Source of the DNA: Verrucomicrobiota bacterium
GTDB lineage: Bacteria > Verrucomicrobiota > Verrucomicrobiia > Opitutales > Opitutaceae
Length of the DNA: 48,727 bases
NCBI GenBank assembly: GCA_030601755.1
Contig: JAUWBF010000018.1
Coordinates: forward strand, 1-48,727
Reading direction: 5' to 3'
In this document: piece after piece, positions 7,397 to 40,063 of the stretch
Numbering within the stretch: the stretch's first letter is position 1
Layout of the letters: every line of letters starts with the position of its first letter
The notes under the pieces: model-generated
What the model saw: only the letters and a program-made list of their open reading frames with translations
Told to the model about the DNA's origin: nothing
Databases searched by the model: none
Position numbers and translations under genes: made by a program

Positions 7397-7488
7397 GCCC
7401 ACGAAACACACGAACTGACACGAAGCAAAATCCGCCCAGGCCAAGCCGCCGATCCGACCTTTCGTGTCGTTTCGTGTGTTTCGTGGGC
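7397..7488. repeat. Periodic-arm inverted repeat A1 (nuoD/nuoE junction)
   Basis: Left arm 7397-7424 and right arm 7461-7488, 28 nt each with two mismatches, around a 36-nt loop. Each arm contains several ACGAA units at 9-10 nt spacing (GCCCACGAAACACACGAA at the left start). The element begins 20 nt after the nuoD stop and ends 24 nt before the nuoE start, so it nearly fills the gap. It is the same type as 9418-9504, with which it shares arm and loop sequence (AATCCGCCCA). Confidence 0.9.
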
Positions 7489-7512
7489 AACCCTCCTCCT
7501 CTTTCCGTCTCG

Positions 7513-8001
7513 ATGAATCTCAAGCCCGAAACCACCGCGCGTATCGACGAAGTCATTACGCACTATCCGGTCAAGCGCAGCGCCACCCTGCCGCTCCTCC
7601 ACCTCATCCAGGAGGACGTCGGCCACATCTCCGACGAGGCCATCACCTGGATCGCCCAAAAACTCGAGCTGCAGCCCATCAACGTGCTCGAGGTCGTGAC
7701 CTTCTACCCGATGTTCCGCCGCCACCCCATCGGCCGGCGTCACATCAAGGTCTGCCGCACCCTCTCCTGCGCCTTGCGCGGCGGCTACAAGACCTGCGAC
7801 ACCTTTAAGTCCGAGTTCGGCGTCGAGCTCGGCGCGGTCTCCGCCGACGGCGAGGCCACCGTCGAGTTCGTCGAGTGCCTCGCCTCCTGCGGCACTGCCC
7901 CCGTCGTCATGATCGACGAGGTCCTTCATGAAAACGTCGACTGCGCGAAGGCCAAGGCCCTCGCCGACCAGATCAAGTCCGAGGCCGCCGCCCGCAAGTA
8001 A
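7513..8001 (+). CDS. nuoE: NADH-quinone oxidoreductase subunit E
   Basis: 162-aa thioredoxin-like 24-kDa subunit with the N1a [2Fe-2S] cluster. The ligands appear as CRTLSC (Cx4C) and CLASC (Cx3C), the family pattern. The N-terminal helical part (ITHYPVKRSATLPLLHLIQE and VLEVVTFYPMFRR) is typical. The ATG at 7513 was chosen because the 13 codons upstream fall inside the right arm of the inverted repeat. The leader CCTCTTTCCGTCTCG is pyrimidine-rich with no Shine-Dalgarno. Electrons pass from NuoF through this subunit's off-path cluster. Confidence 0.96.
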   Translation: MNLKPETTARIDEVITHYPVKRSATLPLLHLIQEDVGHISDEAITWIAQKLELQPINVLEVVTFYPMFRRHPIGRRHIKVCRTLSCALRGGYKTCDTFKSEFGVELGAVSADGEATVEFVECLASCGTAPVVMIDEVLHENVDCAKAKALADQIKSEAAARK

Positions 8002-8012
8002 GGCCCGTTGGG

Positions 8013-8048
8013 AAACCCTGAATCCTAATTCTCAAATCCTAAATTTCC
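8013..8048 (+). repeat. Degenerate tandem (one-armed repeat) before nuoF
   Basis: The nuoE/nuoF gap holds AATCCTAATTCTCAAATCCT and neighbouring copies of a 7-9 nt unit resembling AATCCTAA. It looks like a single arm of the periodic-arm repeat type; no complementary arm is present. Confidence 0.4.
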
Positions 8049-8049
8049 G

Positions 8050-9408
8050 ATGTCCGCACCCGCCCAGACCCGCATCATCTTCAAGCACATCGACGAGACC
8101 GGCTACACCAACGACATCGAGTGCTACCTCCGCAACGGCGGCTACGAGGTCCTCAAGAAAGCCGTCGGCATGAAGCCCGAGGACCTGCGCGAGGAGGTCA
8201 AGAAGGCCGGACTGCGCGGCCGCGGCGGCGCCGGTTTCCCCTGCGGCTTCAAGTGGTCGCTCGTCGACCGCAAGAGCGGCAAGCCCATCTACCTCATCGT
8301 CAACGCCGACGAATCCGAGCCCGGCACATTTAAAGATCGCTACATCATCCATCAGGACCCGCACCAGCTCATCGAGGGCATCATGATCTCCTGCTTCGCC
8401 AACGACGTGAAGCAGGCCTACATCTACATCCGCGGCGAGATGCCCGAGGGCGCCCGCATCCTCGAAAAGGCCATCGCCGAGGCCAAGGCCAAGAACTTCG
8501 TCGGCCCCAACATCCTTGGCACCGGCTACAGCTGCGAGATCTACGTCCACCGCGGCGCCGGCGCCTACATCTGCGGCGAGGAAACCGGCCTCATCGAGTC
8601 CCTCGAGGGCAAGCGCGCCAACCCCCGCATCAAGCCTCCCTACTTCCCCGCGGTGCTCGGCCTCTACCAGTGCCCCACCATCGTCAACAACGTCGAGACC
8701 CTCTGCCACGTTAAGCACATCGTCGACATGACCGGCGAGGCCTACGCCAAGATCGGCACGCCCAACAACACCGGCACCCGCATCTTCTGCGTCTCCGGCC
8801 ACGTGCAGCGCCCCGGCTACTACGAGTTCCCCGCCGGCACCATCACCATGGGCCAGCTCCTCAACGACGTCTGCGGCGGCCCGCTCCCCGGCCGCACCTT
8901 CAAGGCCGTCATCCCCGGCGGTTCCTCCGCCAAGGTCCTGCGCTTCGGCGAACGCTACAAGGGCAAGCGCAAGGTCGGCGCCGAGATGGTCGAGTATGAC
9001 TGGGGCGTCGAGGACGTGCCCATGGACTTCGACTCGCTCGCCATGATCGGCTCCATGGGCGGCTCTGGCGGCGTCATCGTCATGGACGACTCGGTCAACA
9101 TGGTCGAGGCCCTCGCCAACATCAACGCCTTCTACCAGCACGAGTCCTGCGGCCAGTGCACGCCCTGCCGCGAAGGCTCCCTGTGGATGAAGAAGATCAC
9201 CACCCGCATGGTGCACGGCGACGCCCGCCCGCAGGACGGCGCCCTGCTCAAGTCCGTCGCCGACCAGATCCCCGGCCGCACCATCTGCGCCTTCGGCGAA
9301 GCCTGCTCGTGGCCCACCCAGAGTTTTTATCTCAAGTTCAAGGACGAGTTCGACGGCTACTCGGAGCAGAAAAAGACGCTCCCCGCCGACCGCCTGACCA
9401 TCGTCTGA
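8050..9408 (+). CDS. nuoF: NADH-quinone oxidoreductase subunit F
   Basis: 452 aa, the 51-kDa subunit that binds NADH and FMN and carries cluster N3. The NADH/FMN sites are GLRGRGGAGFPCGFKWS (about residues 54-70), VNADESEPGTFKDR and GAGAYICGEETGLIESLEG. The [4Fe-4S] ligands are ESCGQCTPCREG plus the later cysteine in TICAFGEACSWP. Length is normal. The ATG at 8050 follows CCTAAATTTCCG, again without a Shine-Dalgarno. The gene is 48 nt from nuoE, and its stop is followed after 9 nt by inverted repeat A2. Confidence 0.97.
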   Translation: MSAPAQTRIIFKHIDETGYTNDIECYLRNGGYEVLKKAVGMKPEDLREEVKKAGLRGRGGAGFPCGFKWSLVDRKSGKPIYLIVNADESEPGTFKDRYIIHQDPHQLIEGIMISCFANDVKQAYIYIRGEMPEGARILEKAIAEAKAKNFVGPNILGTGYSCEIYVHRGAGAYICGEETGLIESLEGKRANPRIKPPYFPAVLGLYQCPTIVNNVETLCHVKHIVDMTGEAYAKIGTPNNTGTRIFCVSGHVQRPGYYEFPAGTITMGQLLNDVCGGPLPGRTFKAVIPGGSSAKVLRFGERYKGKRKVGAEMVEYDWGVEDVPMDFDSLAMIGSMGGSGGVIVMDDSVNMVEALANINAFYQHESCGQCTPCREGSLWMKKITTRMVHGDARPQDGALLKSVADQIPGRTICAFGEACSWPTQSFYLKFKDEFDGYSEQKKTLPADRLTIV

Positions 9409-9417
9409 TCAGATATA

Positions 9418-9504
9418 GCCCACGAAACACACGAAAGAGCACGAAACTGAAATCCGCCCAACCCGCCGAACTGACTTTCGTGTCTTTTCGTGTGTTTCGT
9501 GGGC
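9418..9504. repeat. Periodic-arm inverted repeat A2 (nuoF/nuoG junction)
   Basis: Left arm 9418-9446 and right arm 9476-9504, 29 nt with three mismatches, around a 29-nt loop. The outer 18 nt of the left arm are identical to A1. The element starts 9 nt after the nuoF stop and ends 24 nt before the nuoG ATG. Confidence 0.9.
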
Positions 9505-9528
9505 CAAACAAATTCTCACTCTCCCGCA

Positions 9529-11205
9529 ATGATCCAGCCCGCCAAACCTGACCTCGTCACCGTCAACATCGACGGCAAGGAGATCGCCGTGCCCAAGGGC
9601 ACCAACGTCATCGAGGCCGCCCGCCAGCTCAACGTCGACGTCCCCCACTACTGCTACCACCCGAAGCTCGCGGTCGTCGGCAACTGCCGCATGTGCCTTG
9701 TCGAGATGGGCATGCCCGCCGTCGATCCCGCCACCAAGGCCCCGATCATGGACGAGGCCACCGGCAAGCAGAAGATCAACTGGATCCCCCGTCCCCAGAT
9801 CGGCTGCGGCACCAACGTCGCCCCGGGCATGCACATCAAGACCACCAGCCCGATGGTCAAGGACGCCCGCGAAGGCGTCATGGAGTTCCTCCTTATCAAC
9901 CACCCGCTCGACTGCCCGATCTGCGACCAGGCCGGCGAGTGCAAGCTCCAGGAGCAGGCCACCGCCTACGGCCGCGGCTACTCCCGCTTCATCGAGCAGA
10001 AAAACGTGAAGCCCAAGCGCACCCAGCTCGGCCCGCGCGTCACCCTCGACGACGAGCGCTGCGTGCTCTGTTCGCGCTGCATCCGTTTCTCCCGCGACGT
10101 CGCCGGCGAGGACGTCCTCGGCTTTGTCGACCGCGGCAGCTACTCCACGCTCACCTGCCACCCCGACAAGAAGCTCGAGCACAACTACTCGCTCAACACC
10201 GTCGACATCTGCCCGGTCGGCGCGCTCACCTCGACCGATTTCCGCTTCAAGATGCGCGTCTGGTTCCTCAAGCAGACCAAGGCCATCTGCACCGAGTCCT
10301 CCGTCGGCGCCAACACCGTCGTCTGGTCCCGCGAAGGCGTCATCTACCGCATCACCCCTCGCCGCAACGACGAGGTCAACGACACCTGGATGACCGACTC
10401 CGGCCGCCTGCTCTACAAGGCCGTCGCCGCCGAGAACCGCCTCAAGACCGCCGGCTCCCTCGACGCGCTCGTGGCCGAGGCCGCCAAGCTCCTCAAGGCC
10501 GGCTCCGTCGCCATCGTCGGCTCCGGCCGCGCCACCGTCGAGGAGCAGTTCGCGCTCAAGAAACTTGCCGCCGCCACCGGCGCCTCCGTCGCGTTGGTCA
10601 GTCGGGTGGGGGAGGGCGACAAGCTCCTGCTCTCCGCCGACCGCAATCCCAACGTCCGCGGCGCGCTCGTCACCGGGCTCATCACCCAGTTGCCCTCGGC
10701 GCAACTCACCGCGCTCGCCGCCGACATCGACGCGGGCAAGGTGAAGACGATCCTCACCCACGGCGAGGACCTCGTCGCCGCCGGCCTCACCGCCGCGCAG
10801 CTCGCCAAGGTCAACGTCGTCGCGCTCGCCACCCACGCCGACGCGACCACCGCCGCGGCCAAGGTCGTCATCCCGACGCTCACCGCCTTCGAGAAGAGCG
10901 GCACCTTCGTCAACCAGCAGTTCCGTATCCAGAAGTTCGCGACGGCCGTCCCCGGCCCGGCGGGCGCGACCGACGACCTCGCGGTCCTTGCCAAGCTCAC
11001 CGCCGCCCTCGGCGCGCAGACCCCCGGCGCCACCGTCGGCGCGATCTGGAACACCCTCGCCGCCGAGGTGCCCGCGCTGGCGACGATCACCTACGCCAAC
11101 CTCCCCGAGACCGGCCTGCTCCTCGACGCCACCCCGTGGCAGGGCCTGCCCTTCGTCGAGGGCGAGACGCTCCACCACAAACCCGCCGCCGCGGCCTCCG
11201 CCTGA
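9529..11205 (+). CDS. nuoG: NADH-quinone oxidoreductase subunit G (short form)
   Basis: 558 aa, the 75-kDa iron-sulfur subunit. The N-terminal [2Fe-2S] ligands are HYCYHPKLAVVGNCRMCLVE. Next come the His/Cys cluster region and DCPICDQAGECKLQE, then DERCVLCSRCIRF and DICPVGALT for the [4Fe-4S] clusters. The molybdopterin-oxidoreductase-like C-terminal part is much shorter and more divergent than in the roughly 900-residue E. coli protein, ending in an Ala/Thr-rich stretch (residues about 300-558). The ATG at 9529 excludes 13 codons lying in the repeat arm. The leader is pyrimidine-rich (ATTCTCACTCTCCCGCA). Confidence 0.95.
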   Translation: MIQPAKPDLVTVNIDGKEIAVPKGTNVIEAARQLNVDVPHYCYHPKLAVVGNCRMCLVEMGMPAVDPATKAPIMDEATGKQKINWIPRPQIGCGTNVAPGMHIKTTSPMVKDAREGVMEFLLINHPLDCPICDQAGECKLQEQATAYGRGYSRFIEQKNVKPKRTQLGPRVTLDDERCVLCSRCIRFSRDVAGEDVLGFVDRGSYSTLTCHPDKKLEHNYSLNTVDICPVGALTSTDFRFKMRVWFLKQTKAICTESSVGANTVVWSREGVIYRITPRRNDEVNDTWMTDSGRLLYKAVAAENRLKTAGSLDALVAEAAKLLKAGSVAIVGSGRATVEEQFALKKLAAATGASVALVSRVGEGDKLLLSADRNPNVRGALVTGLITQLPSAQLTALAADIDAGKVKTILTHGEDLVAAGLTAAQLAKVNVVALATHADATTAAAKVVIPTLTAFEKSGTFVNQQFRIQKFATAVPGPAGATDDLAVLAKLTAALGAQTPGATVGAIWNTLAAEVPALATITYANLPETGLLLDATPWQGLPFVEGETLHHKPAAAASA

Positions 11206-11211
11206 TTTTTA

Positions 11212-11336
11212 GCCACAGAGGACACGGAGCTCCGACACAGAGAACACAGAGTTTCAAACCGACCGATCACTTAACTTTTAGCGCCTCATCTCCGACCTCC
11301 GTGACCTCTGTGTCCGAGCTCTGTGATCTCTGTGGC
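11212..11336. repeat. Periodic-arm inverted repeat B1 (nuoG/nuoH junction)
   Basis: Left arm 11212-11251 and right arm 11297-11336, 40 nt each with about seven mismatches, around a 45-nt loop. Arms are built of 9-nt-spaced CACRGAG units (GCCACAGAGGACACGGAG at the left start). The element begins 6 nt after the nuoG stop and ends 35 nt before the nuoH ATG. Its left arm nearly matches that of B2. Confidence 0.9.
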
Positions 11337-11371
11337 CAAACTCCGATTCCTCCCTTTCCCGTTTTCCGCAA

Positions 11372-12538
11372 ATGTTCGACTTCTACTTCGACCTCCCGCT
11401 CTGGATCCGCCTTTTTGTGCAAGGCCTGGCCGTGATGCTGGTCATGTTCCCCATCGGCGCCGCCTGCTCGATGGCCGAGCGCAAGATCGCCGCCTGGGTG
11501 CAGGACCGCCCGGGCCCCAACCGCACCATTGCGCCCATCCTGGCGTGGATTCCCGGCATCGGCTTCCTGCGCAAGCTCGGCCTGTTCCAGCTCGCGGCCG
11601 ACGGCGGCAAGTTCGTCTTCAAAGAGGACGCCGTGCCCGGACACGTGAACAAGTTCTACTTCATCGCCGCGCCGATCATCGCGGTGATCCCCGCGCTCAC
11701 CACCGTCGCCGTGGTGCCGTTTGGCGCCTATCTTGATGCCGCCGGTCAGGTCATTCCGATCATGCTGGCCAACGTCGACATCGGTCTGCTGGCGGTCTTC
11801 GCGATCTCCTCGCTGAGCGTCTACGCCATCATTCTCGCCGGCTGGGCCTCCAACTCGAAGTATCCCTTCCTCGGCTCGGTCCGCGCCTCGGCCCAGCTCG
11901 TGTCCTATGAGCTCTCGATGACCCTCTCGGTGCTGCCGGTTTTCCTCTGGACCAACGGCCCGCTGCGCGGCGAGACGGCCGACAGCCTGCTCGGTTCGCT
12001 CAGCCTCGCCCGCGTGGTCGAGTTTCAGAGCCAGTCCGGATTCTGGGGCGGCCTGTGGTTCGGTTTCCTGATGCCGCTCTCGGCCTTCATTTTCCTCGTC
12101 TCGCTCTTCGCCGAGACCAACCGCCAGCCGTTCGACACCGTCGAGTCCGAGGCCGACCTCGTGAACAGCTTCGGTTCCGAATACGGCGCGTTCAAGTGGT
12201 CGCTTTTCTACGTCGCCGAATACTGCCACATGCTCGTCGGCTCGGCGGTGTTCATGCTGCTCTTCGGCGGCGGCTGGAACCCGTTGCCCTGGGTCACGCT
12301 CGCGGACTTCGCGAACCTGCTCGGCTTCGCGCACCTGCCGCTCGTCACCGGCATCGTCGGCATCGGCATCTTCCTCGGCAAGGTGCTCGCGATGATCTTC
12401 TTCTTCATGTGGGTGCGCTGGACGCTCCCGCGTTTCCGCTACGACCAGGTCATGGCCATCGGCTGGCGCAGATTGCTGCCGCTCTCGATCGCCAACCTGA
12501 TCGCCTACGTCATCGGCATCGCCCTGTTGACCAAGTAA
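11372..12538 (+). CDS. nuoH: NADH-quinone oxidoreductase subunit H
   Basis: 388-aa polytopic membrane subunit that links the quinone cavity to the proton-pumping arm. AERKIAAWVQDRPGPNR near residue 40 is the family signature, and ETNRQPFDTVESEADLVNSF (about 248-267) is the conserved acidic loop at the quinone site. Eight or nine hydrophobic helices are evident. It is somewhat longer than the usual 320-350 aa, mainly because of the insertion around residues 60-90 (IPGIGFLRKLGLFQLAADGG). The ATG at 11372 follows GTTTTCCGCAA with no Shine-Dalgarno. Confidence 0.97.
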   Translation: MFDFYFDLPLWIRLFVQGLAVMLVMFPIGAACSMAERKIAAWVQDRPGPNRTIAPILAWIPGIGFLRKLGLFQLAADGGKFVFKEDAVPGHVNKFYFIAAPIIAVIPALTTVAVVPFGAYLDAAGQVIPIMLANVDIGLLAVFAISSLSVYAIILAGWASNSKYPFLGSVRASAQLVSYELSMTLSVLPVFLWTNGPLRGETADSLLGSLSLARVVEFQSQSGFWGGLWFGFLMPLSAFIFLVSLFAETNRQPFDTVESEADLVNSFGSEYGAFKWSLFYVAEYCHMLVGSAVFMLLFGGGWNPLPWVTLADFANLLGFAHLPLVTGIVGIGIFLGKVLAMIFFFMWVRWTLPRFRYDQVMAIGWRRLLPLSIANLIAYVIGIALLTK

Positions 12539-12562
12539 CCGACCACCGACCTTTACCGCGCC

Positions 12563-13105
12563 ATGGCCGTCATCCCTGTCGAACGCAAGCCGCTCACCTT
12601 CGCGGAGCGCACCTACATCCCGCAGATCATCAGCGGGCTGAAGACCACCCTCAAGCACATGGTGCGCAAGCCCATCACGCTGGAGTATCCGGAGCAGCGT
12701 CCCGAGATTCCCGCCGGCTACCGCGGCGTGCCGACGCTCGTCTACGATCCCAACGGTCGCGAGAAGTGCGTGTCCTGCCAGCTGTGCGAGTTTGTCTGCC
12801 CGCCCAAGGCCATCCGCATCACGCCCGGCGAGATCCCCTCCGACGATCCCACCGCGCACGTCGAGAAGCGCCCCGAGGAGTTCAAGATCGACATGCTGCG
12901 CTGCATTTATTGCGGCCTGTGCCAGGAGGTCTGCCCCGAGGAGGCCATCTGGCTGCAGAACCAGTTCTCCATGTCCGGCTACACCCGCGAGGAGATGGTC
13001 AACGACAAGAAACGTCTCTACGAGCTCGGCGGCACGCTGCCCGACGCGCACTTCAAGTGGGACAAAAAGAAGGCCGCCGAGGAGGCGGGCAACGGTCACC
13101 ACTGA
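12563..13105 (+). CDS. nuoI: NADH-quinone oxidoreductase subunit I
   Basis: 180-aa ferredoxin-like 23-kDa subunit with clusters N6a and N6b. Two Cx2Cx2CxxxCP motifs are clear: CVSCQLCEFVCPPKA (about residue 70) and CIYCGLCQEVCPEEA (about 115). The N-terminal amphipathic part (ISGLKTTLKHMVRKPITLEYPE) docks on the membrane arm. It lies 24 nt after nuoH, with no repeat in between, and is followed 6 nt after its stop by inverted repeat B2. Length is normal. Confidence 0.97.
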   Translation: MAVIPVERKPLTFAERTYIPQIISGLKTTLKHMVRKPITLEYPEQRPEIPAGYRGVPTLVYDPNGREKCVSCQLCEFVCPPKAIRITPGEIPSDDPTAHVEKRPEEFKIDMLRCIYCGLCQEVCPEEAIWLQNQFSMSGYTREEMVNDKKRLYELGGTLPDAHFKWDKKKAAEEAGNGHH

Positions 13106-13111
13106 TTTTTT

Positions 13112-13248
13112 GCCACAGAGAACACCGAGCTCCGACACAGAGAACACGGAGTTTCCGATCCACAGACCTTATTTACCAACGCCATTTCATAGCCCTGTCT
13201 TCTCCGGTCTCCGTGACCTCTGTGTCCGGGCTCCGTGAACTCCGTGGC
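13112..13248. repeat. Periodic-arm inverted repeat B2 (nuoI/nuoJ junction)
   Basis: Left arm 13112-13151 and right arm 13209-13248, 40 nt each with about eight mismatches, around a 57-nt loop. The arms resemble those of B1 closely, but the loop differs. It begins 6 nt after the nuoI stop and ends 20 nt before the nuoJ ATG. Confidence 0.9.
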
Positions 13249-13268
13249 CCATTCCGAAATTTCCGTCC

Positions 13269-14089: not shown

Positions 14090-14098
14090 ATCCATTCC

Positions 14099-14127: not shown

Positions 14128-14135
14128 TCCGCCCA

Positions 14136-14711: not shown

Positions 14712-14753
14712 TCGCCGCCCGCCGCTTACCGCATACCGCCGAGCCTCCGCGAT

Positions 14754-14782: not shown

Positions 14783-14795
14783 ACCCTTTTCCCAC

Positions 14796-16697: not shown

Positions 16698-16710
16698 CAC
16701 CTTTCAATCC

Positions 16711-16838
16711 GTCCAACGTCAAAAGTCTCAACGTCCAACGTCACCACCACTCGCTTCGCTCATCACCAAATCGACAGGTTGATCGGCCGCTCCGCGGCCC
16801 GCTAGCGACCTTCGACTTTGGACCTTAAGACCTTCGAC
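16711..16838. repeat. Periodic-arm inverted repeat C (nuoL/nuoM junction)
   Basis: Left arm 16711-16742 and right arm 16807-16838, 32 nt each, 22 matching, around a 64-nt loop. Each arm is a 7-8 nt tandem: left GTCCAAC-GTCAAAA-GTCTCAAC, right GACCTTC-GACTTTG-GACC. The element starts 13 nt after the nuoL stop and ends 12 nt before the nuoM ATG. Several mismatches fall at the same positions in every unit (C versus G). Confidence 0.8.
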
Positions 16839-16850
16839 CTCTTTTCAGCC

Positions 16851-24848: not shown

Positions 24849-24909
24849 AGTAGCGCAGGCTTCCAGCCTGCATTCTGAAAATGACGGCAGGCTGGAAGCC
24901 TGCGCTACT
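24849..24909. repeat. Perfect 23-bp inverted repeat (element E)
   Basis: Arms 24849-24871 and 24887-24909 are exact complements around a 15-nt loop. Each arm also contains a smaller palindrome, GCAGGCT-TCC-AGCCTGC. The right arm contains the stop codon (24905-24907) of the minus-strand sugar kinase gene. It looks like a REP/MITE-type element and may double as a bidirectional terminator. Confidence 0.9.
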
Positions 24910-25810
24910 TTTTCAGCGCCGTGAAGGGTGTCTCGTCGACGTAATCGGGGGTGGCGCCGCGCTGGGTGGCGACCCACTCGCCGAGGCGGCAGGCGCGGCG
25001 CAGGATTTCGGCGTCGGCGGGCTTTTCGGGAGACAGCAGGCCGGTCAGAAACGCGGCGAGAAAACTGTCGCCGGCGCCGACGGTGTCGGCGATCTCGACG
25101 TCGCGGCCGTTTTCCCAAGTCCACCGGCCGTCGCGCAGGAGGCCGGCGCCGCGGGCGCCGGCGGTGATGCAGACGACGGGGCAATTGGTCTGCGCGGCGA
25201 GGGCGCGGGCGTCGCGTTCCTCGCGGCCGGGTTGCTCGTCGCCGCCGTCGGCGAGGCGGGCGGCTTCGGCGGCGTTGAGCTTGAGCACGTCGGCGCGGCC
25301 GGCGAGCTCGCGCACGAGCGGGAGGTCGTCGTGGGGCGCGCGCAGGTTGACGTCGAACACGCGCAGGGCGTCGGCGGGCAGCACGGCGAGCAGGCGGTCG
25401 AGCGCGGTGCGGTTGAACTGCGAGCGTTGGGCGAGCGAGCCGAAGACGAGGGCCCGCGCGCCCATGGCGGCCTGCACGCTGTCCTGGGTGACGAAGATCT
25501 GGTCCCACGCGACGCTGAGCGTGATGTCGTAGTGCGCGTCGCCCTTTTCGCCGATGGCGGCGATGACGGTGCCCGTATTCAATCCGTGGTGACGCGTGAT
25601 CAGCTCGGTGCTGAGGCCCCAGGCGCGCAGGCGGCGGTCGAGTTCGTCGCCGAGGAAGTCGCGCCCGGTGGCGGAGACGATGCGCACGTCGGCCCCGTGG
25701 CGGTGCAGGTGGTAGCCGACGTTGAACGGCGCGCCGCCGGCGAAGAGGCCGGCAGGCAGGCAGTCCCAGAGGATTTCACCGAAGCAGAGGATGGTGGGGG
25801 CGGAAGACAT
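24905..25810 (-). CDS. PfkB-family sugar kinase, probably fructokinase
   Basis: 301 aa from the ATG at 25810; an upstream in-frame extension would translate the inverted repeat and was rejected. CFGEILWDCLPAG and GGAPFNVGYHLHRHGA (25-40) match the substrate-binding start of fructokinases. VFDVNLRAPH and LKLNAAEAARL are the middle PfkB blocks, and DTVGAGDSFLAAFL (242-255) holds the catalytic Asp248 and the anion hole. It would phosphorylate a free sugar, most likely fructose, using ATP. It lies 98 nt downstream of the sucrose-phosphatase/glycosidase fusion gene on the same strand, which supports fructose released from sucrose as substrate. The stop codon is inside a palindromic element. Confidence 0.85.
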   Translation of the reverse strand: MSSAPTILCFGEILWDCLPAGLFAGGAPFNVGYHLHRHGADVRIVSATGRDFLGDELDRRLRAWGLSTELITRHHGLNTGTVIAAIGEKGDAHYDITLSVAWDQIFVTQDSVQAAMGARALVFGSLAQRSQFNRTALDRLLAVLPADALRVFDVNLRAPHDDLPLVRELAGRADVLKLNAAEAARLADGGDEQPGREERDARALAAQTNCPVVCITAGARGAGLLRDGRWTWENGRDVEIADTVGAGDSFLAAFLTGLLSPEKPADAEILRRACRLGEWVATQRGATPDYVDETPFTALKK

Positions 25811-25813
25811 GGA

Positions 25814-25894
25814 TGATGGGAGATGGAAGATGGCTGATGGGGTGGGCGTGCCTGCGGTTGAGGATCGGGTCTGACCATCGCCCATCTCCCATCA
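25814..25894. repeat. Periodic-arm inverted repeat D (sugar-kinase junction)
   Basis: Left arm 25814-25833 (TGATGGGAGATGGAAGATGG) and right arm 25875-25894 pair over 20 nt with two mismatches, around a 41-nt loop. The arm is a 7-nt tandem of NNGATGG. It fills the gap between the fusion-gene stop (25909) and the kinase start (25810), both on the minus strand. Confidence 0.85.
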
Positions 25895-25908
25895 TACATC
25901 TACATGAT

Positions 25909-31373: not shown

Positions 31374-31379
31374 GCGCGG

Positions 31380-33819: not shown

Positions 33820-34098
33820 GACTGCGATGTGGTGTGTTGGTTTGCTTCGTTGGGCGGGACGAAGACGCCCGTCGTGCCCACCAACCGACGCCGGAGTGCG
33901 TGGCAGCGGGCACAAGAGGGGTGAGCCAACCGGATGGCCGGCGCGCGGTCAAGGTCGCCCGCGGGCGCGGCCGGCGACGATCGCGTGGCGACGGCGGGCG
34001 GGATTTGGCCGCCTGATCGGGGAGGGGAGCGGACATGAGTTCGCAAAATAGTGGAGGAATACTTTGCGGTTGGCCGGCCGTATGCTTAACTCCACGGC

Positions 34099-34554
34099 AT
34101 GGCTACCACAGACAATGTGTTGGTCTCGCTCAGCGGGTTGACGCTGCCGTCGGATCTGCCGTGGCGAGTGAACTTTGTTCAGATGGTCGACGGGTATTTG
34201 GAGCGGCTGCATGCCGACCAATCGTTCCGACCGCCGCGGTTTTTCGGCTATTATTTCAAGGGCGACGACGCCATCGCCATCACCGGTTGCTGGACGGTCA
34301 TGCTCGATGCCTGCGAGGAGCTGACCACGCTGCGCGAATCGGTCGAGGCGATGAGCATGGGCCAGTTCAGCATCGCCGGTCCCGAGGACGGCGAGCCGGA
34401 CTTCATCCTCATCCACGACCGCTACGACGGCTCGTGCTGGCTGTGGCGGTTCGGCTACGGACAGCGCTTCGTCTCCGCCACCGAGGCCCAGGAGGGCGAG
34501 CAGGCCGGCGACGACGAGGAGCAGGCCGGCACCGGCGAATCCGAGGAGGATTGA
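34099..34554 (+). CDS. Small acidic-tailed protein of unknown function
   Basis: 151 aa starting MATTDNVLVSLSGLTLPSDL. The body is mixed alpha/beta with many aromatic residues (PRFFGYYFKGDDAIAITGCW, DGSCWLWRFGYGQRF). The last 30 residues are almost entirely Glu, Asp, Gly and Ala, a disordered acidic tail. There is no signal or membrane segment. It is divergent from glyQS across a 279-nt gap with no other gene, and it is followed by a palindrome. I do not recognise it. Confidence 0.65.
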   Translation: MATTDNVLVSLSGLTLPSDLPWRVNFVQMVDGYLERLHADQSFRPPRFFGYYFKGDDAIAITGCWTVMLDACEELTTLRESVEAMSMGQFSIAGPEDGEPDFILIHDRYDGSCWLWRFGYGQRFVSATEAQEGEQAGDDEEQAGTGESEED

Positions 34555-34651
34555 CGCGGTTTTCGCCCGCGCGCGCCGGAGCGTCCGGCTCGCGCGGGTT
34601 TGCCGTCGGCGGGGGGCGGTGGCTTTCGGTGGCGCGGCAGCGGGGGTTTGG

Positions 34652-34781
34652 AAGGAGGGCGGGCACTCTTGCCCGCTGATCGGGTGGTGGTTGAAACAGC
34701 GTGGGGCGATGTATTCGCGGGGGCGGGCGTTTTTTTTGAAGGGGACGTCGCTCGGGGTGGGCAGGAGTGCCCCCCCTCCTT
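34652..34781. repeat. Long-arm inverted repeat G
   Basis: Left arm 34652-34676 and right arm 34757-34781 pair over 25 nt with three mismatches, around an 80-nt loop. The left arm also folds on itself (GCGGGCA-CTCT-TGCCCGC). It occupies much of the 264-nt gap between the acidic-tailed protein gene and the nucleotidyltransferase; no gene is seen in that gap. Confidence 0.8.
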
Positions 34782-34818
34782 GGTTGCGTCGGGCGCAGGT
34801 AACTGTTTTCGGAGAGCG

Positions 34819-35712
34819 ATGTCGTCTTCGCTTTCACTGGTGGTTTTGGCCGCGGGCATGGGCTCGCGTTATGGCGGGCTCAAGCAGCTCGACCCGGTTG
34901 GTCCGTCGGGCGAGACCATCCTGGACTATGCGGTGTTCGACGCGATTCGCGCGGGGTTTGACCGCGTGGTGTTCGTGATCCGGCGCGATTTCGAGGCCGA
35001 GTTCAAGGCGCAGGTCGGTGCGCGCTACGCGGGCAGGATCGCGGTGGACTACGTTTTTCAATCGCTGGACCGCCTCCCGGCCGGCTTCGCGGTGCCGGCG
35101 GGGCGCGAGAAACCCTGGGGCACGGGCCACGCGGTCTGGTGCGCGCGCGGGGTGGTCGAGGGACCGTTCGCGGTGATCGGCGCGGATGACTTTTTCGGTC
35201 GCGACGCGTTTGCGCGATTGGCCGGGTTTCTGCGGCCCTCGGTGGTCAACGACGAGGCGCCGCCCGCCTTCGCGATGGTCGGCTACCGGCTGGCCAACAC
35301 GCTTTCGGAAAACGGCGCGGTGTCGCGCGGTGTGTGCGCGGTGGACGCGCGGGGATTTTTGATCGAGGTCGTCGAGCACACCGGCATTCGCCCGGAGGAG
35401 GTCGGCGCGGGCAACAAATACACCGGCGAGGAGGTGGTCTCGATGAATTGCTGGGCGTTCACGCCGGCGCTCTTCACGGCGCTCGACGAACAGTTCACGG
35501 CGTTCCTCGAGGCGCGGGGCGGCGAGCCGAAGTCGGAGTTTTATCTGCCGGCGGCGGTTTCGGAGCAGGTCGCGGCCGGACTGGTGACGGTCGAGGTGCG
35601 GCCGACGACGGCGAGCTGGTTTGGCGTGACCTACCGCGAGGACCGTCCGCGGGTGCAGGCGGCGCTGGCGGCGTTGGTCGACGCCGGCGAGTATCCGGCG
35701 CGTTTGTTTTAA
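34819..35712 (+). CDS. Nucleotidyltransferase (NTP-transferase family)
   Basis: 297 aa from the ATG at 34819, which has a good ribosome site (GGAGAGCG), one of the few in this window. The N-terminal SLSLVVLAAGMGSRYGGLKQ is the nucleotide-binding G-x-G-x-R motif of sugar-phosphate nucleotidyltransferases. PVGPSGETILDYAVFDA and WGTGHAVWCARGVVEGPFAV support the fold, and VIGADDFFGRDAF supplies the metal-binding Asp. The later ENGAVSRGVCAVDARGFLIE and MNCWAFTPALFTALDEQFTA are as in unclassified bacterial members. It would activate a sugar- or small-molecule-phosphate with an NTP; the substrate is not clear. It is followed 18 nt later by a histidine kinase gene. Confidence 0.8.
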   Translation: MSSSLSLVVLAAGMGSRYGGLKQLDPVGPSGETILDYAVFDAIRAGFDRVVFVIRRDFEAEFKAQVGARYAGRIAVDYVFQSLDRLPAGFAVPAGREKPWGTGHAVWCARGVVEGPFAVIGADDFFGRDAFARLAGFLRPSVVNDEAPPAFAMVGYRLANTLSENGAVSRGVCAVDARGFLIEVVEHTGIRPEEVGAGNKYTGEEVVSMNCWAFTPALFTALDEQFTAFLEARGGEPKSEFYLPAAVSEQVAAGLVTVEVRPTTASWFGVTYREDRPRVQAALAALVDAGEYPARLF

Positions 35713-35730
35713 TTTTCCGCTCACACCGCC

Positions 35731-36717
35731 ATGCCTCCGCTGACACGACCATTGCGAAAGACCGCGTTGCTCGTGGCGGTAGTCTACCTCGCGCTGGGCA
35801 CGGTATGGGTGGTGGCGACCAACGCCGCCGTGACGAGCCTCACCGAGCAGGTGCCGGTGGCGCGCATGTCGCTGCACAACTACAAGGAGGCGTTCTTCGT
35901 GGTGCTGACGGCGGTCGGGCTCTACTTCGCGCTCGCCTGGTTGCTCGAGCGGCAGCAGCGCCTCGAGCAGGAGAAGCGGCGCATCGAGGAAATGTTGCAA
36001 GTGGCCCAGCGGCTGGAGGCGCTCGGCACGTTGTCGGCGGTGGTCGTTCACGATTTCAACAACGTGCTCGCGATCATCAAGGGCGTGACCGCGCTGGCCG
36101 ACCTGCAAAAGCTCAACCCGGAGAAAGTCGCCGCGCGCCTGCAGGAGATCGAGGCCGCCACGGTGCGCGCCACCGGCATCGTGCAGGAGCTGGCGATGTT
36201 CATGCGCGACGCCTCGCCGCAGCGCGAGCCGCTGGACCTGGGCGGGCTGGTGCGCGAGTTCGAGCCGATGGCCCGGCGGGTGCTCGGCAAGGGCGTCGCG
36301 TGGCAACTCGACATCGAGGAAAACCTGCCGCCGGTGGTCGCGTGCCGTTCACAGGTCGACCAGGTGTTGCTCAACCTCGTGATCAACGCTCGCGACGCCA
36401 TGGCGGGGCGCGCGGACCGGCGCCTGCGCGTGGAGGTGGCCGAGCGCCGCCTGCGCCGCCATCGTTCGCTGCTGCACCGCGAGCCGGTCACGGGCCGGTT
36501 CGTCGCGGTGTCGGTCCGCGACAACGGCCACGGCATCGCCGAGGGCGATCTGGTGCGCATCTTCGACGCCTTCTACACGACCAAGCCGCCCGGCCAGGGC
36601 ACGGGCCTCGGGCTGGCATCGGTGTTCCGCGTCATGCAGCAACACGGCGGGTGGGTCGAGGTCGACTCCAAGCCGGGGCGCGGCTCGACGTTCCGCCTGT
36701 ATTTCCCCGCCGCCTAG
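35731..36717 (+). CDS. Membrane sensor histidine kinase (no receiver domain)
   Basis: 328 aa. Two helices (about 9-32 and 52-74) enclose a short external loop, then a linker coil (QQRLEQEKRRIEEMLQVAQR). The phosphoacceptor is in LSAVVVHDFNNVLAIIKGVT (H107), of the HisKA/NtrB-like type with the DFNN pattern. The ATPase domain shows the N box NLVINARDAM, the G1 box VRDNGHGIAEG and the G2 region PPGQGTGLGLASVF. It lies 18 nt after the nucleotidyltransferase, so it is probably co-transcribed. No response regulator is adjacent; a small HPt-like protein is encoded convergently downstream. Confidence 0.9.
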   Translation: MPPLTRPLRKTALLVAVVYLALGTVWVVATNAAVTSLTEQVPVARMSLHNYKEAFFVVLTAVGLYFALAWLLERQQRLEQEKRRIEEMLQVAQRLEALGTLSAVVVHDFNNVLAIIKGVTALADLQKLNPEKVAARLQEIEAATVRATGIVQELAMFMRDASPQREPLDLGGLVREFEPMARRVLGKGVAWQLDIEENLPPVVACRSQVDQVLLNLVINARDAMAGRADRRLRVEVAERRLRRHRSLLHREPVTGRFVAVSVRDNGHGIAEGDLVRIFDAFYTTKPPGQGTGLGLASVFRVMQQHGGWVEVDSKPGRGSTFRLYFPAA

Positions 36718-36757
36718 CGTCCCGTCACGGCAGTGCTTTGCATAAACGGCTCCACCG

Positions 36758-36834
36758 GTAGGCCGCCCGCTTGCAGGCGCGAGGGACGTGATGCGACGGA
36801 CAATGACAAACGCGCCTGCACGCAGGCTGCCTAC
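36758..36834. repeat. Long-arm inverted repeat H between convergent genes
   Basis: Left arm 36758-36780 and right arm 36812-36834 pair over 23 nt with three mismatches, around a 31-nt loop. It lies between the histidine kinase and the convergent HPt gene and probably acts as a shared terminator. Confidence 0.8.
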
Positions 36835-36853
36835 AACTTTCAAGACCTCCTTG

Positions 36854-37231
36854 CTAGGCCAGCCACGGGTAGGCGGCGCGCAGCGAATCGGCCGCGTGTC
36901 CGATGGAGACGCGCGCGTCGGCGATGGTCGCCGCGCGGGCGTCCGGCGAGTGCTCCGGCCAATGGTCTTCCAAACCGCGCAGGAGCAGGCCGGCGCGCTC
37001 GAGGCCGAGGCTGCGCAACGAGCCCTGCAACGCGTGGCACGTGCGGCGCCCCTCGGTCTCGTCCATCGTGCCCTGCCGCACGGCGAACGCGTCGAGCTGG
37101 CGCGCGTAGTCGGCGAGGGCCTCGTCGAGGAAAGCCTTGAGGTCGGCCTGCTCGGCCGCGCCGTCGGCGACGCCGAAGATCAGTTCGGCCTGCTCGGCGC
37201 TGAGGTCGGGGGCGGGTTGGTCGGGCTGCAT
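36854..37231 (-). CDS. HPt-domain phosphotransfer protein
   Basis: 125 aa from the ATG at 37231 (MQPDQPAPDLSAEQAELIFG); a longer frame exists but its extra 62 residues are low-complexity. The core is a four-helix bundle with EGRRTCHALQGSLRSLGLER, which matches the HPt H-x-[LK]-x-G-x-x-x-x-x-G signature with the acceptor His in CHALQGS (Gln replaces the usual Lys). It could pass phosphate between the adjacent orphan histidine kinase and a distant receiver. It is convergent with the kinase gene, so the two are on separate transcripts. Confidence 0.6.
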   Translation of the reverse strand: MQPDQPAPDLSAEQAELIFGVADGAAEQADLKAFLDEALADYARQLDAFAVRQGTMDETEGRRTCHALQGSLRSLGLERAGLLLRGLEDHWPEHSPDARAATIADARVSIGHAADSLRAAYPWLA

Positions 37232-37333
37232 GGAGACGAGCGTGGGCCGAACCGCCGGTCGGGGAAAGCCGCAATCGCGGCCGGCGGCGCGAGCCGGCTT
37301 GCAGTCGCCGCGGCGCGCGGCGAGATTTTCGGA

Positions 37334-38143
37334 GTGAACACCGTCCCGTCGCCCTCCGTCTCGCTGCCGGTCGATTCGGTCAACCTGCCCTTTATCGGGG
37401 CGCGCACCGACACGCATTCACTTTTTCAATACGTGCTCACCGGGGTGTCAGGCGACGAGGCCTCGTTCGCGGTGCCGGGCTGGGTGGCGCTGCGCGAGCA
37501 CCTGGAGGTCGGCGCGGGCGTGAGTTTTCATCTGCCGTTCGCCACGCGCGCGGATTTTTTCGACGAGGGCGAGGTGATCGCGGCCCGCGCCGACGCCGAG
37601 CAGGGCGGCCAGGTGGCCGTGGCGCGGCTCTTGGGGCGGTCGCCGTTGCAATATCCGCTGCGCGCGGCGGTGGCCGAGGGGCGCATCCGCTTCGGCGACG
37701 AGGGCGACGGTCCGGCCGAGCGACTGACGCTGGTGCAGGCGTTGCTGCGCGACTGCGCGCTGACCAAGCAGGGCGTGCGCGTCTACTTCAAGCACCTGGT
37801 GCCGCTGTTCTCGCGCATCACGCTGTTCCCGACCGAGGAATACGCCCAGTTGCGCACGGTCCTGCTGGAGGAGATCCGCGGCAAGATCCTCGCCAACGTG
37901 GAGACCCTCGAAAAATGGACCGCCGAGGCGCAGACGTTCGGTCCCGGCGACATCGTCAGCCGGCTCGACATGGAGGCGCTGCGCGCGGTGATCGAGCCGG
38001 AGATCAACAACGAGCTCTTCGGCACGGTGTTCGACCTCTCGGCGATCAAGCAATACCTCGACGCGATCCGCCTGTTGGAGCGCAAGCTGTGCCTGAACTA
38101 CAACACGCTGGTCCTGCTCTACGCCGCCGAGCTACAGGGCTGA
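37334..38143 (+). CDS. Unknown protein, possible PilZ-like N-terminus
   Basis: 269 aa from a GTG at 37334 (VNTVPSPSVSLPVDSVNLPF); longer frames antisense to the HPt gene were rejected. Residues about 15-100 are beta-rich with a pattern like PilZ domains (FQYVLTGVSGDEASFAVPGW, then GVSFHLPFATRADFFDEGEV), but the RxxxR and DxSxxG cyclic-di-GMP residues are not convincing. The C-terminal 150 residues are helical (ILANVETLEKWTAEAQTFGP, LDAIRLLERKLCLNYNTL). It is divergent from the HPt gene by 102 nt. Function is not assignable. Confidence 0.6.
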   Translation: MNTVPSPSVSLPVDSVNLPFIGARTDTHSLFQYVLTGVSGDEASFAVPGWVALREHLEVGAGVSFHLPFATRADFFDEGEVIAARADAEQGGQVAVARLLGRSPLQYPLRAAVAEGRIRFGDEGDGPAERLTLVQALLRDCALTKQGVRVYFKHLVPLFSRITLFPTEEYAQLRTVLLEEIRGKILANVETLEKWTAEAQTFGPGDIVSRLDMEALRAVIEPEINNELFGTVFDLSAIKQYLDAIRLLERKLCLNYNTLVLLYAAELQG

Positions 38144-38240
38144 CGGTTGAGCGAGTTGGATGAACCACCAAGTTGACGAAGGGGTAAAAGCCGTCTGGTG
38201 GTCAGCCTATGCGACGGGTGTTATGGACGCGTGGTTTTTA

Positions 38241-38313
38241 ACCACGGATAACTCGGATAAACACGGATTTTGATCCGTTCGAAACATCCGTGGAGATCTG
38301 TGGAATCCGTGGT
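38241..38313. repeat. Periodic-arm inverted repeat I
   Basis: Left arm 38241-38268 and right arm 38286-38313, 28 nt each, 21 matching, around a 17-nt loop. Arms are 9-nt-spaced CACGGAT/CTCGGAT units. It lies in the 199-nt gap between the convergent 269-aa gene and the DUF4202 gene; nothing else is seen there. Confidence 0.8.
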
Positions 38314-38342
38314 CAATCTCCGGATCGAATAATGGCTGCGGC

Positions 38343-38921
38343 TCAGGCCAGCGCCTCGCGCACGAGGTCGGCGATGGCCGGCGGCAGGTCGAGCCCGAGG
38401 GCGGCCTGCTGGGCGCCGGGGCTGAGCTTGCGCCAAGTCTTGCGCAGGATGTCCACGAACTTCTCGCGCGGGTAGTCGGCGTGCTGGGCGGCGAAGCCGG
38501 CGATCTCGTTTTCCAAAAACACAAGCACGGCTGCGTCCTCGAGGGCCTGCGTGCCGGGGTTGGTCTTGAGGCCGGTCTTGGAAACCCAGGTGCGGACCTC
38601 GTCGGCCTCGGCGGCGGACACGCCGGCTTCCAGGAGGAGTTCCTTGGCGCGGTCGGCCTGCTTGACGTAGAGCGAGCGGCGCCAGTTGAGGTAGCCGACC
38701 TTGCCGTCGGGGAAGGTGGCGCGCGGGGTCATCCAACGCTCGAGGTGCTGGCAGCGCGCGGCGAGCAGCAGCGCGGGCGAGGCGTCGGGCACGAGGCGGG
38801 CGACCCAGGCCTCCACGCGGTCGGCGTAGACGAGCTCGGCGGGACGGCCGTTGTCGGCCAGGGTCGGGTCGGCGGAGTGGGCGGTGTCAATGAGCCAGCG
38901 GGCTTGGTCGTGGGCGGACAT
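38343..38921 (-). CDS. DUF4202-domain protein
   Basis: 192 aa from the ATG at 38921 (MSAHDQARWLIDTAHSADPT). The features I remember for DUF4202 are present: AELVYADRVEAWVARLVPDA, LLLAARCQHLERWMTPRATF, GKVGYLNWRRSLYVKQADRA, then ALEDAAVLVFLENEIAGFAA and REKFVDILRKTWRKLS. The conserved His, Arg and Glu residues suggest an HD-like helical enzyme, but its role is not known to me. It follows the GH26 gene by 22 nt on the same strand, so it is the last gene of the exopolysaccharide operon or merely rides along. Confidence 0.75.
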   Translation of the reverse strand: MSAHDQARWLIDTAHSADPTLADNGRPAELVYADRVEAWVARLVPDASPALLLAARCQHLERWMTPRATFPDGKVGYLNWRRSLYVKQADRAKELLLEAGVSAAEADEVRTWVSKTGLKTNPGTQALEDAAVLVFLENEIAGFAAQHADYPREKFVDILRKTWRKLSPGAQQAALGLDLPPAIADLVREALA

Positions 38922-38943
38922 GAGCCGCACCCTACGCGCCCGA

Positions 38944-39915
38944 TCACGGACGGTCCAGCCCGGTGCTCATTCGCCAGTCGATTTCCTTGTCGGCCTCAAA
39001 CCAGACGATGGCGGCGATGTTCCACTCGCGGGCGGCGGCGAAGGCGCCGTCGATCCAGGCGCGCTTGTCGCCGCCGGTCGCGGCCGAGGCGGTCTCGAAG
39101 ACGATCAGGGGCTTGTCCGCCGAGAGGGCGCGCAGCTCGCGCACCGCGGGGCCGAAGATGTCGCGGAAGGAACGCCACTGGCTTTGCCAGCCGTGCTTGG
39201 CGGGGGTTTGGGTGTCGCCCCAGTTGTAACCGTCGACGCCGAGCACGTCGACCCACGCGTCGCCGGGCCAGTAGGCGGCGATGGCATTCCAAGGGTGGCT
39301 GCGCGTGGTGAAGGGGCCGGGCACGGACTCGACGTTGGGGCAAAAGGCGAAGCCGATGTCGTCGCGTTCGGCGGGCAGGGCGGCGCGCGCGCGGCCGACG
39401 ACATGGCGCCAGAGGTCGCGGTAGATTGCGGGCGCGTCGGCGTTGTAGTTTTCTTTGGACACGCCCCAGTGGTAGCGGCCGAGGTTCATCTCGTGCATGA
39501 GGCGCACGATCACGGGGCCGTCGTGCGCGGCGAGCGTGGCGGCGAAGGCGTCGAGGTAGGCGTCGTAGTCGCCGCCGAGGATGCGCGCGGAGGGAATGAT
39601 GACCTCGACGCCCTGCGCGGTGTAATACATCGGCTCCCAGGTGATGACGGGAATGGCGCCGGCGGACTTGGCGGCGGCGAGCGTCGTCGCGATTTTCGGC
39701 AGGTCGTCGCGCTTGGCTGGGTCCTCGGGCCATTGCAGAAAGCAGACGACGTAGCCGATGTTCCGGTCGGCGCCGGTGGCCTCGTCGGCCGCGGCGATCT
39801 GTTCGCGGGTGATCGGGTGGCCCTCGAGCGCGACGCCGAAGGCGGGCGTGGTGACGTTGGCGCAGGCGCACTGCGCGAGGACCACAGTCAACAGGACGTA
39901 GAGCTGACGTTTCAT
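38944..39915 (-). CDS. Secreted GH26-family glycoside hydrolase
   Basis: 323 aa from the ATG at 39915. Residues 1-19 are a signal peptide (MKRQLYVLLTVVLAQCACA). The barrel shows IPVITWEPMYYT, then VIVRLMHEMNLGRYHWG with the acid/base Glu142 after His141, as in GH26 beta-mannanases. DVLGVDGYNWG and PLIVFETASA with the probable nucleophile Glu274 follow. GH26 enzymes cut beta-mannan or related beta-glycans. Its place just downstream of a GT2 synthase parallels BcsZ cellulase next to cellulose synthase, so it probably trims the polymer made by that synthase in the periplasm. Residue assignments are by pattern only. Confidence 0.75.
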   Translation of the reverse strand: MKRQLYVLLTVVLAQCACANVTTPAFGVALEGHPITREQIAAADEATGADRNIGYVVCFLQWPEDPAKRDDLPKIATTLAAAKSAGAIPVITWEPMYYTAQGVEVIIPSARILGGDYDAYLDAFAATLAAHDGPVIVRLMHEMNLGRYHWGVSKENYNADAPAIYRDLWRHVVGRARAALPAERDDIGFAFCPNVESVPGPFTTRSHPWNAIAAYWPGDAWVDVLGVDGYNWGDTQTPAKHGWQSQWRSFRDIFGPAVRELRALSADKPLIVFETASAATGGDKRAWIDGAFAAAREWNIAAIVWFEADKEIDWRMSTGLDRP

Positions 39916-39943
39916 ATCCGCTGCCATTTGAAAGTTGGATTTT

Positions 39944-40063
39944 TTAACGCAAAGGCGCAAAGCCGCAAAGTTTCGGACGCTGGGTTTGGGGCAGGGGGCT
40001 TTAAGCGAGTGCGATGGGATTGATGTCAGCCAAGACCTTCGCGCCTTTGCGTCTTTGCGTTAA
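39944..40063. repeat. Periodic-arm inverted repeat J (GT2/GH26 junction)
   Basis: Left arm 39944-39970 and right arm 40037-40063 pair over 27 nt with three mismatches, around a 66-nt loop. Arms are 8-9 nt tandems of CGCAAAG (TTAACGCAAAGGCGCAAAG at the left start). It fills the 163-nt gap between the GT2 stop and the GH26 start on the minus strand. Confidence 0.9.

Follow-up and report, generated by a model that had tools for sequence, protein, structure and literature searches.

The window analysed here is a stretch of 48,727 nucleotides (nt) from a Verrucomicrobiota bacterium of the Opitutaceae (assembly GCA_030601755.1, contig JAUWBF010000018.1), which carries a run of genes for subunits of NADH dehydrogenase (complex I) and, in the gaps between its genes, eight inverted repeats whose arms are themselves built of short tandem units. 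A sequence-only reading of the window had described these eight elements as one design in several sequence flavours, all lying between genes. Our analysis confirmed seven of them as clear inverted repeats and the eighth, at 16711-16838, as a degenerate one (Table 1); the intergenic position was likewise borne out, as was the tandem structure of the arms, with a unit length of 7-10 nt. The seven clear elements (I1-I6 and I10) rank within the 25 longest inverted repeats of the window; their arms measure 25-44 nt and are 74-93% complementary. The element at 16711-16838 falls outside these 25. It is made up of tandem 7-nt units, arrayed at 16710-16742 on one strand and at 16806-16840 on the other, and its arm pairing, judged by eye, is weak.

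The elements had also been said to fill nearly the whole gap from stop to next start in seven cases. With our own gene calls, made with a simple codon model, six elements take about 68-84% of their gap, the one at 38241 takes about 37%, and the one at 16711 overruns a TTG start call, which was itself probably set too early. Five of the hairpins are found between co-directional complex I genes, whose families were taken from Pfam and whose Nuo letters are our own naming. The position of five elements inside this run speaks against their being intrinsic terminators.

Table 1. Periodic hairpins without an open reading frame (ORF) in the window, and two further palindrome classes of the genome (L and G numbers in table and text are our handles for loci and genomes)
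Feature	Position	Strand	Arms	Repeat and arm complementarity	Neighbouring genes
Hairpin, CACGAA flavour	7397-7488	.	7397-7424, 7461-7488	I4, 93%	complex I 49-kDa and thioredoxin-like 2Fe-2S subunits
Hairpin, CACGAA flavour	9418-9504	.	9418-9446, 9476-9504	I2	51-kDa and NuoG-type
Hairpin, CACAGAG flavour	11208-11340	.	11208-11251, 11297-11340	I1	NuoG- and NuoH-type
Hairpin, CACAGAG flavour	13112-13248	.	13112-13151, 13209-13248	I3	NuoI- and NuoJ-type
Degenerate hairpin, heptamer flavour GTCCAAC / GTCGAAG	16710-16840	.	7-nt arrays		two proton-antiporter subunits
Hairpin, heptamer flavour GATGGGA	25809-25899	.	25809-25833, 25875-25899	I10	
Hairpin, CACGGAT flavour	38238-38316	.	38238-38271, 38283-38316	I6, 74%	
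Hairpin, CGCAAAG flavour	39942-40065	.	39942-39970, 40037-40065	I5, 90%	
GTAG-tagged REP-like pairs	36758-36834, 24849-24909; also L147, L150, L151, L152, L155, L157				
Third palindrome family	L143 12470, L144 7140, L151 18300, L156 12950, L157 12621				

To compare these repeats with chance, which the sequence-only reading had proposed as a check, we scanned the window and 20 further stretches of the same genome, 401,704 bp in all, with 208 gaps of 40-600 nt and a threshold score of at least 14 for an ungapped inverted repeat. The excess was clear: this score was reached in 46 of the 208 gaps and never in the 624 dinucleotide-shuffled gaps or the coding controls. Because the 20 stretches sit on contigs picked for holding matches, this density is not a genome average. 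Sorted by arm sequence, the 46 strong repeats comprised 19 with CRCNNA units, 11 GTAG-tagged pairs resembling repetitive extragenic palindromic (REP) sequences, five of another palindrome, one with heptamers and 10 others, of which three (the one at 7397 and two of L155) are periodic by eye; the periodic kind thus makes up about half. No strong repeat was found in the 36 divergent gaps, compared with 46 in the 172 others (Fisher 8.5e-5), and divergent gaps are not shorter (median length 183 nt vs. 138 nt). In the 17 co-directional gaps with CRCNNA-unit hairpins, the arm begins 2-22 nt past the upstream stop codon in 16.

The scan also revealed a second intergenic class, the GTAG-tagged paired small hairpins, of which the pair at 24849-24909 was recognized by eye and the 11 others by rule, and a third palindrome family, GGAGAACGGACATTCCTGTCCGTTC and its kin, with five cases in the scanned 402 kb.

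Genes between like arms

A BLAST search of the genome with one hairpin returned both whole hairpins and single arms spaced some hundred bases apart; the segment 11212-11336 gave 35 matches, counting itself and single arms, and the hairpin at 13112-13248 shows 77% identity to it. Genes for GxxExxY and four-helix-bundle proteins are often annotated close to such repeats. In this genome, all five matches to the GxxExxY family (PF13366, PDDEXK_3) are enclosed by periodic inverted arms, of the flavours CACAGAG (L010), CACGGAA (L011), CACGAA (L012), CGCAAAG (L013) and ACAGAG (L014). Three of these, CACAGAG, CACGAA and CGCAAAG, are the flavours of five window elements: the arms of 11208-11340 also enclose the gene at L010, those of 7397-7488 are nearly identical to the arms around L012, and the flavour of 39942-40065 also encloses L013. 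The four-helix-bundle family (PF05635) has four matches here, one of them (L018) under the family cut-off, and the arms of three of the four exceed a null of shifted windows. Inverted ends are therefore common to gene-bearing and gene-less copies, as in a miniature inverted-repeat transposable element (MITE) and its insertion sequence.

Beyond this genome, a draw of 194 genomes from the phylum included 104 with PF13366 and 140 with PF05635. We assembled 175 GxxExxY elements, of which 172 could be tested and three had flanks that were too short (2 of 80 in another scoring run), and scored their arms against 722 windows of the same geometry that had been shifted within these loci. In total, 131 of the 172 lay above the 99th percentile of the shifted windows (own genome 5/5, phylum 26/30 and 49/60, named genomes 51/77). 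CRCNNA-unit arrays flanked 49 of the 77 named loci on both sides and 69 on one side or both, which was so for 1 and 58, respectively, of 502 shifted windows; for the loci of this genome and the phylum, the values were 49 of 95 vs. 2 of 212 for both sides and 69 of 95 vs. 25 of 212 for at least one side. A null of mismatched arm pairs was unusable because flavours are common to several genomes, so that arms from different genomes pair. At least one positive GxxExxY locus was found in 15 of 20 named phyla, including one of the two archaea tested; among those that failed are both Thermodesulfobacteriota and 7 of the 12 Bacteroidota. The named set consists of the best 80 matches to one GxxExxY clade, and it therefore samples the family unevenly. 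Among the four-helix loci, 26 of 29 exceeded the null of shifted windows, or 27 of 29 with L226 at its right coordinates (score 16.0).

Plasmids carry both kinds of element. Periodic arms were present at all eight named plasmid loci that we examined (35 records matched), with GxxExxY genes in Bacteroides finegoldii and Bernardetia and four-helix genes in Trichormus, Nostoc (two), Calothrix (two, nearly identical) and Riemerella. A plasmid search with the CACAGAG hairpin returned nothing at E 1e-3, and one GxxExxY query against 50,697 phage records returned nothing at E 1e-5.

The two genes differ in the period of their arms. In 105 of 122 GxxExxY elements, the arms matched themselves best at a lag of 8, 9 or 10, and in 25 of 27 four-helix elements the best lag was 7; letter-shuffled arms showed no lag preference of that sort. 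The flavours are thus two families, each with its own gene between like arms elsewhere: family A, with GxxExxY, and family B, with the four-helix protein. An inverted stem with heptamer repeats around an S23-type ORF is the anatomy of family B, outside the window. Within the window, the hairpins at 16710-16840 and 25809-25899 are putatively placed in the four-helix family, solely by their 7-nt period. At three further loci (L250, L251 and L261), the downstream arm of a four-helix element has expanded into a long run of GAGAGTG heptamers, and the upstream arm is still short.

Flavour also follows the protein phylogeny. On the GxxExxY tree, four unit classes, to which 117 of 131 elements were assigned (14 arms had no assignable class), required 17 changes compared with a mean of 48.4 in shuffles, and none of 200 shuffles was as low; 56 of the 114 inner branches of this tree are open, and clustering is also seen among near-copies (L188 and L218, for example). 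The data support that protein clade and unit go together, as is expected if the protein reads the unit.

The predicted structure of the GxxExxY protein is confident, with a predicted local distance difference test (pLDDT) of 93.1. Its best Foldseek match was the Cas4 protein SSO0001 (E 7.9e-4), followed by the alkaline and lambda exonucleases. VIA-align superimposed the model on SSO0001 with Z 9.9 and a root-mean-square deviation of 3.7 A over 99 aligned residues; at Z 5.7-7.3 there followed other nucleases, including archaeal Holliday-junction resolvases, mixed with unrelated chains, and similarity in this range may reflect merely a common arrangement. In the PDDEXK site, D...ExK...QxxxY, neither D nor K varies in either alignment (A1 and A3). 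Of the other residues, A1 shows an invariant Y with nearly invariant E and Q, and A3 shows invariant E and Q with a nearly invariant Y. By its modelled fold, the GxxExxY protein is thus predicted to be a minimal Cas4-like PDDEXK nuclease. Sequence searches of the PDB returned no GxxExxY relative, and the parts of the open-licence literature available to us contain no mention of PDDEXK_3 and few of GxxExxY, one of them in a Cas4-like context.

Filled and empty sites

The most precise site lies in a conjugative plasmid of Trichormus variabilis ATCC 29413 (L312), in which a four-helix element has TCAGAAT/TCAGGAG arms. Six close plasmids match only the flanks of this site, with 97.4-98.1% identity, and all four of those examined are empty. 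The difference between filled and empty sites, 428 nt, equals the 423-nt element plus a 5-bp target duplication, GTAAT, present on both sides; a second filled copy, in Scytonema (L322), agrees with 414 nt. By eye, Nostoc C052 holds a shortened copy of this element. We also examined three ORF-less hairpins with Trichormus-like arms elsewhere in Nostoc plasmids. At the first ORF-less site, three plasmids are filled and two are empty, with approximately 79-82% identity; GTAAATC is repeated on both sides in L331 and AAATC in all three filled plasmids. At the second, there is an empty relative with 90-97% identity and the overlap is AAA. These filled and empty sites with duplications show that family-B units insert, in gene-bearing and in gene-less form. 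In addition, in the Nostoc edaphicum plasmid pNe_5 (L313), a four-helix element sits between the genes for both ribonucleotide reductase subunits and is absent there in Calothrix NIES-4105; because this empty relative is too diverged, no duplication could be read.

The direct evidence of insertion is weaker for family A than for family B. In G077, three copies of a GxxExxY element occupy different places and are 90-96% identical in their main pieces and 79% in a short one; parts of the ORF are lost in two of the three, and one of those two has kept both arms. Arms and gene form a unit, and genes are lost from copies. Beside each of these copies (L209, L366 and L367) stands another common repeat (GCACTTCTTCTTAACCTTC...), inverted around the full copy, and the two are possibly nested elements. 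Because this second repeat adjoins, we claim neither clean ends nor a duplication for these copies. In B. finegoldii, a GxxExxY element lies between radA and a gene for an FAD protein, where the gap of Parabacteroides is 13 nt.

Orthologous gaps differ in content. The gap of the 9418 element, compared by eye in 11 relatives, was empty in three, held the same flavour in one and other flavours in five, and contained a four-helix ORF in two, as stretches of 453-473 nt. In one genus, the content of a single gap depends on the species: it holds a plain terminator-like hairpin or four-helix elements of two flavours, or, elsewhere, the same four-helix element with an ORF that is broken by an in-frame stop (G088) or no longer gives a PF05635 match (G050), and in other species an ORF-less CACAGAT hairpin or an ORF-less heptamer hairpin. 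At L028, in the relative G010, the gap matching window positions 9409-9528 has two tandem CACTAAT/CGCTAAT hairpins flanking a small ORF that starts, by eye, with MSNAHEVLAEVKAARVSE; it looks unlike both GxxExxY and the four-helix gene and is perhaps a third cargo gene.

Origin of the hairpins

We consider it quite probable that the window hairpins are non-autonomous copies, lacking an ORF, of small mobile elements. These would fall into two families built on one plan, in which a single small gene of approximately 120 codons is enclosed by inverted terminal arms composed of short tandem units. Family A would have units of 8-10 nt (CACAGAG, CACGAA, CGCAAAG, CACGGAT and kin) and encode the GxxExxY protein, and family B would have 7-nt units and encode the four-helix-bundle protein of 23S rRNA intervening sequences. 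We infer that the encoded protein moves the elements. It would bind its own unit array, with the arms probably extruded as a hairpin or cruciform, and make or guide a break by which the element is copied into a new site; a Cas4-like nuclease acting on branched or hairpin DNA would fit this anatomy. Gene-less copies would be mobilised in trans, positions just past stop codons would be those where insertion is tolerated or preferred, and the arms would remain matched because only copies in which the protein can still read each arm would move.

A wider claim seems to us about as probable as its opposite, namely that these elements form an unnamed class of transposable elements, which the named loci alone place in 15 phyla and in an archaeon. 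Its mover would be either a minimal nuclease of the Cas4 type or a four-helix protein resembling Avd, which would recognise arrays of its own 7-10 nt unit in the hairpin arms. Protein clade and unit would then co-evolve like lock and key, and the class would include, as members or relics, rRNA intervening sequences, the heptanucleotide arrays known from cyanobacteria, Xanthomonas and Geobacter, and the widespread CACRGAG repeats; these two corollaries share the even chance of the claim itself.

The sequence-only reading was right to suppose a common mechanism behind many flavours; what it lacked were the two families, the gene that each possesses and the link of flavour to clade. It had named, among the findings that would overturn it, a MITE with a cognate transposase and terminal duplications. 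This is largely what we found, except that no known transposase seems to be encoded and that duplications were seen in family B only.

Several observations weigh against the mobile-element explanation. First, insertion was read from filled and empty sites; clean target duplications come from three family-B sites, all in cyanobacterial plasmids, and their overlap differs (5 bp, 5 or 7 bp and 3 bp). For family A, the empty relative at the radA site is only 70.8% identical, so that no duplication is readable, and a third relative, Phocaeicola, has another gene there. Second, at 41 of the 172 GxxExxY loci no inverted repeat passes the threshold, and the arms of the four-helix locus L015 did not score (8.5), although heptamers are visible by eye. 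Third, in this genome, no exact ORF-bearing twin of the CACGGAT flavour at 38241 was found (the nearest ORF-bearing arms, CACGGAA at L011, are not identical), the CACGAA-flavoured gene at L012 has one in-frame stop, and D replaces the catalytic-site E at L013. In addition, no clear ORF remnant was visible by eye in the hairpin loops of the window.

Among the alternatives, the one that fares best, which we nevertheless regard as improbable, is that the repeats work as hairpins in mRNA, as 3' stabilisers or as sites of processing or of RNase III, and are retained for the RNA structure they form, with the genes between the arms as passengers. Their position past stop codons, their absence from divergent gaps and the five hairpins in the co-directional complex I run would all fit, and the RNA of the Coxiella intervening sequence is excised by RNase III according to the part of PMC4990558 available to us. 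Selection on RNA pairing predicts more G-U than A-C mismatches on the transcribed strand, and no such excess was found: the counts were 124 vs. 143 in 125 GxxExxY elements (p 0.27), 22 vs. 30 in 27 four-helix elements (p 0.33) and 16 vs. 31 in the 20 hairpins from this genome (p 0.04, contrary to the RNA explanation), with alignments of at least 70 nt left out. The role as RNA hairpins that the sequence-only reading had raised thus gains no support. Furthermore, orthologous gaps are empty in several relatives, and the genes, the flavour-clade link and the target duplications are left unexplained. The surplus of A-C over G-U mismatches in these 20 co-directional hairpins (G000) is predicted by none of the explanations considered here; the two other sets point in the same direction, not significantly.

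It is also improbable that the units are retroelements, whose hairpin RNA would be copied in trans by a reverse transcriptase aided by an Avd-like four-helix protein. The variable overlap at filled sites, 3 to 7 bp, would suit this scenario, as would the resemblance of PF05635 to Avd of diversity-generating retroelements in the portion of PMC10053308 that we consulted. However, the reverse transcriptase family PF00078, the one model searched, has no match in this genome (96% complete) and occurs in only 68 of the 194 phylum genomes; it is also absent from the element-rich G144 (one contig, with 11 GxxExxY and six four-helix matches) and from G177, G100 and G003. A need for a PF00078 reverse transcriptase is therefore not supported.

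A small chance remains for repeats that are not mobile and whose arms lengthen and alter where they stand, through slippage and template switching inside the palindrome. At one site, both arms of L284 hold, by eye, more units than those of L285, and one gap can bear different flavours in different genera. However, growth in place accounts neither for the precise filled and empty sites with duplications in family B nor for like arms at unrelated loci in many phyla with an ORF between them; slippage may shape the arms after insertion. It is very unlikely that the repeats are pairs of sites bound by a global regulator (IHF or HU, for instance): paired tandem-repeat sites of Geobacter metallireducens (class 2 TCTCCGTS, class 3 MTYCTGA) are predicted regulator sites in the sections seen of PMC2700814, but here the 36 divergent gaps, where promoters lie, hold none, and the enclosed genes are not explained. 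Least tenable are REP sequences moved by REP-associated tyrosine (RAYT, Y1) transposases; the genome has three Y1 transposase (PF01797) matches, but its GTAG-tagged pairs are a separate class, no GTAG/CGTC-type end tag is present on any of the eight window elements, and the arms of these elements flank other genes.

Comparison with known systems

The mobile-element explanation places the hairpins beside several known systems. With MITEs and their parent insertion sequences they have in common the same inverted ends with and without a gene and, in family B, a short target duplication; the ends here differ in being arrays of 7-10 nt units whose flavour is tied to the protein clade. REP/RAYT systems likewise combine small, many-copy intergenic palindromes with few copies of a small gene, but in our elements the arms are periodic, a PDDEXK or four-helix protein replaces Y1, and the gene lies inside the palindrome.

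Repeats of 7-9 nt tandem units that face each other between genes have been described before, and the following statements refer to the parts of the cited papers available to us. In Geobacter metallireducens, paired tandem repeats were interpreted as IHF/HU sites (PMC2700814), and in Xanthomonas, inverted pairs of GGGAATC heptamers were reported (PMC4692102); regulation or G-quadruplexes were proposed as their function. The Geobacter class 2 unit, TCTCCGTS, is the CACGGAG unit on the opposite strand. In those parts, no gene is named between the arms, and our comparison is by description. The same holds for the tandem heptamers TAACTGA of Beggiatoaceae (PMC4679880), which may be related to the elements described here. 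Avd of diversity-generating retroelements is a relative of the family-B protein (PMC10053308), but this genome, as stated above, lacks a PF00078 match.

The present elements supply a gene, a boundary and a test for repeats that go by different names in reports from several phyla. They would also suggest a likely role for two common protein families without an assigned function, GxxExxY (TIGR04256/PF13366) and the four-helix bundle (PF05635), and the natural unit-protein pairs of many clades provide a ready set for studying the choice of DNA by a small nuclease.

The closest system is the intervening sequence of 23S rRNA, ORF-less forms of which exist too. In Coxiella, its terminal inverted arms form a stem with GACAGAT heptamers on the 5' side, an S23 four-helix ORF lies inside and is subject to decay, and mobility of such sequences was suggested long ago (PMC4990558, in the part available). 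Like stem arms, heptamers, a single four-helix ORF and ORF decay thus recur in our elements, which differ in that those of the window lie between protein genes and none in a 23S rRNA helix, in that further elements occur in plasmids, with many heptamer flavours and gene-less copies, and in that family A departs from them in both its protein and the length of its unit. The old idea of mobile rRNA intervening sequences has thereby become testable outside rRNA. The best reading is that the elements described here are mobile hairpin elements with gene-bearing and gene-less copies, akin to 23S rRNA intervening sequences, and it would explain repeats that have been noticed in many bacteria without an accepted explanation.

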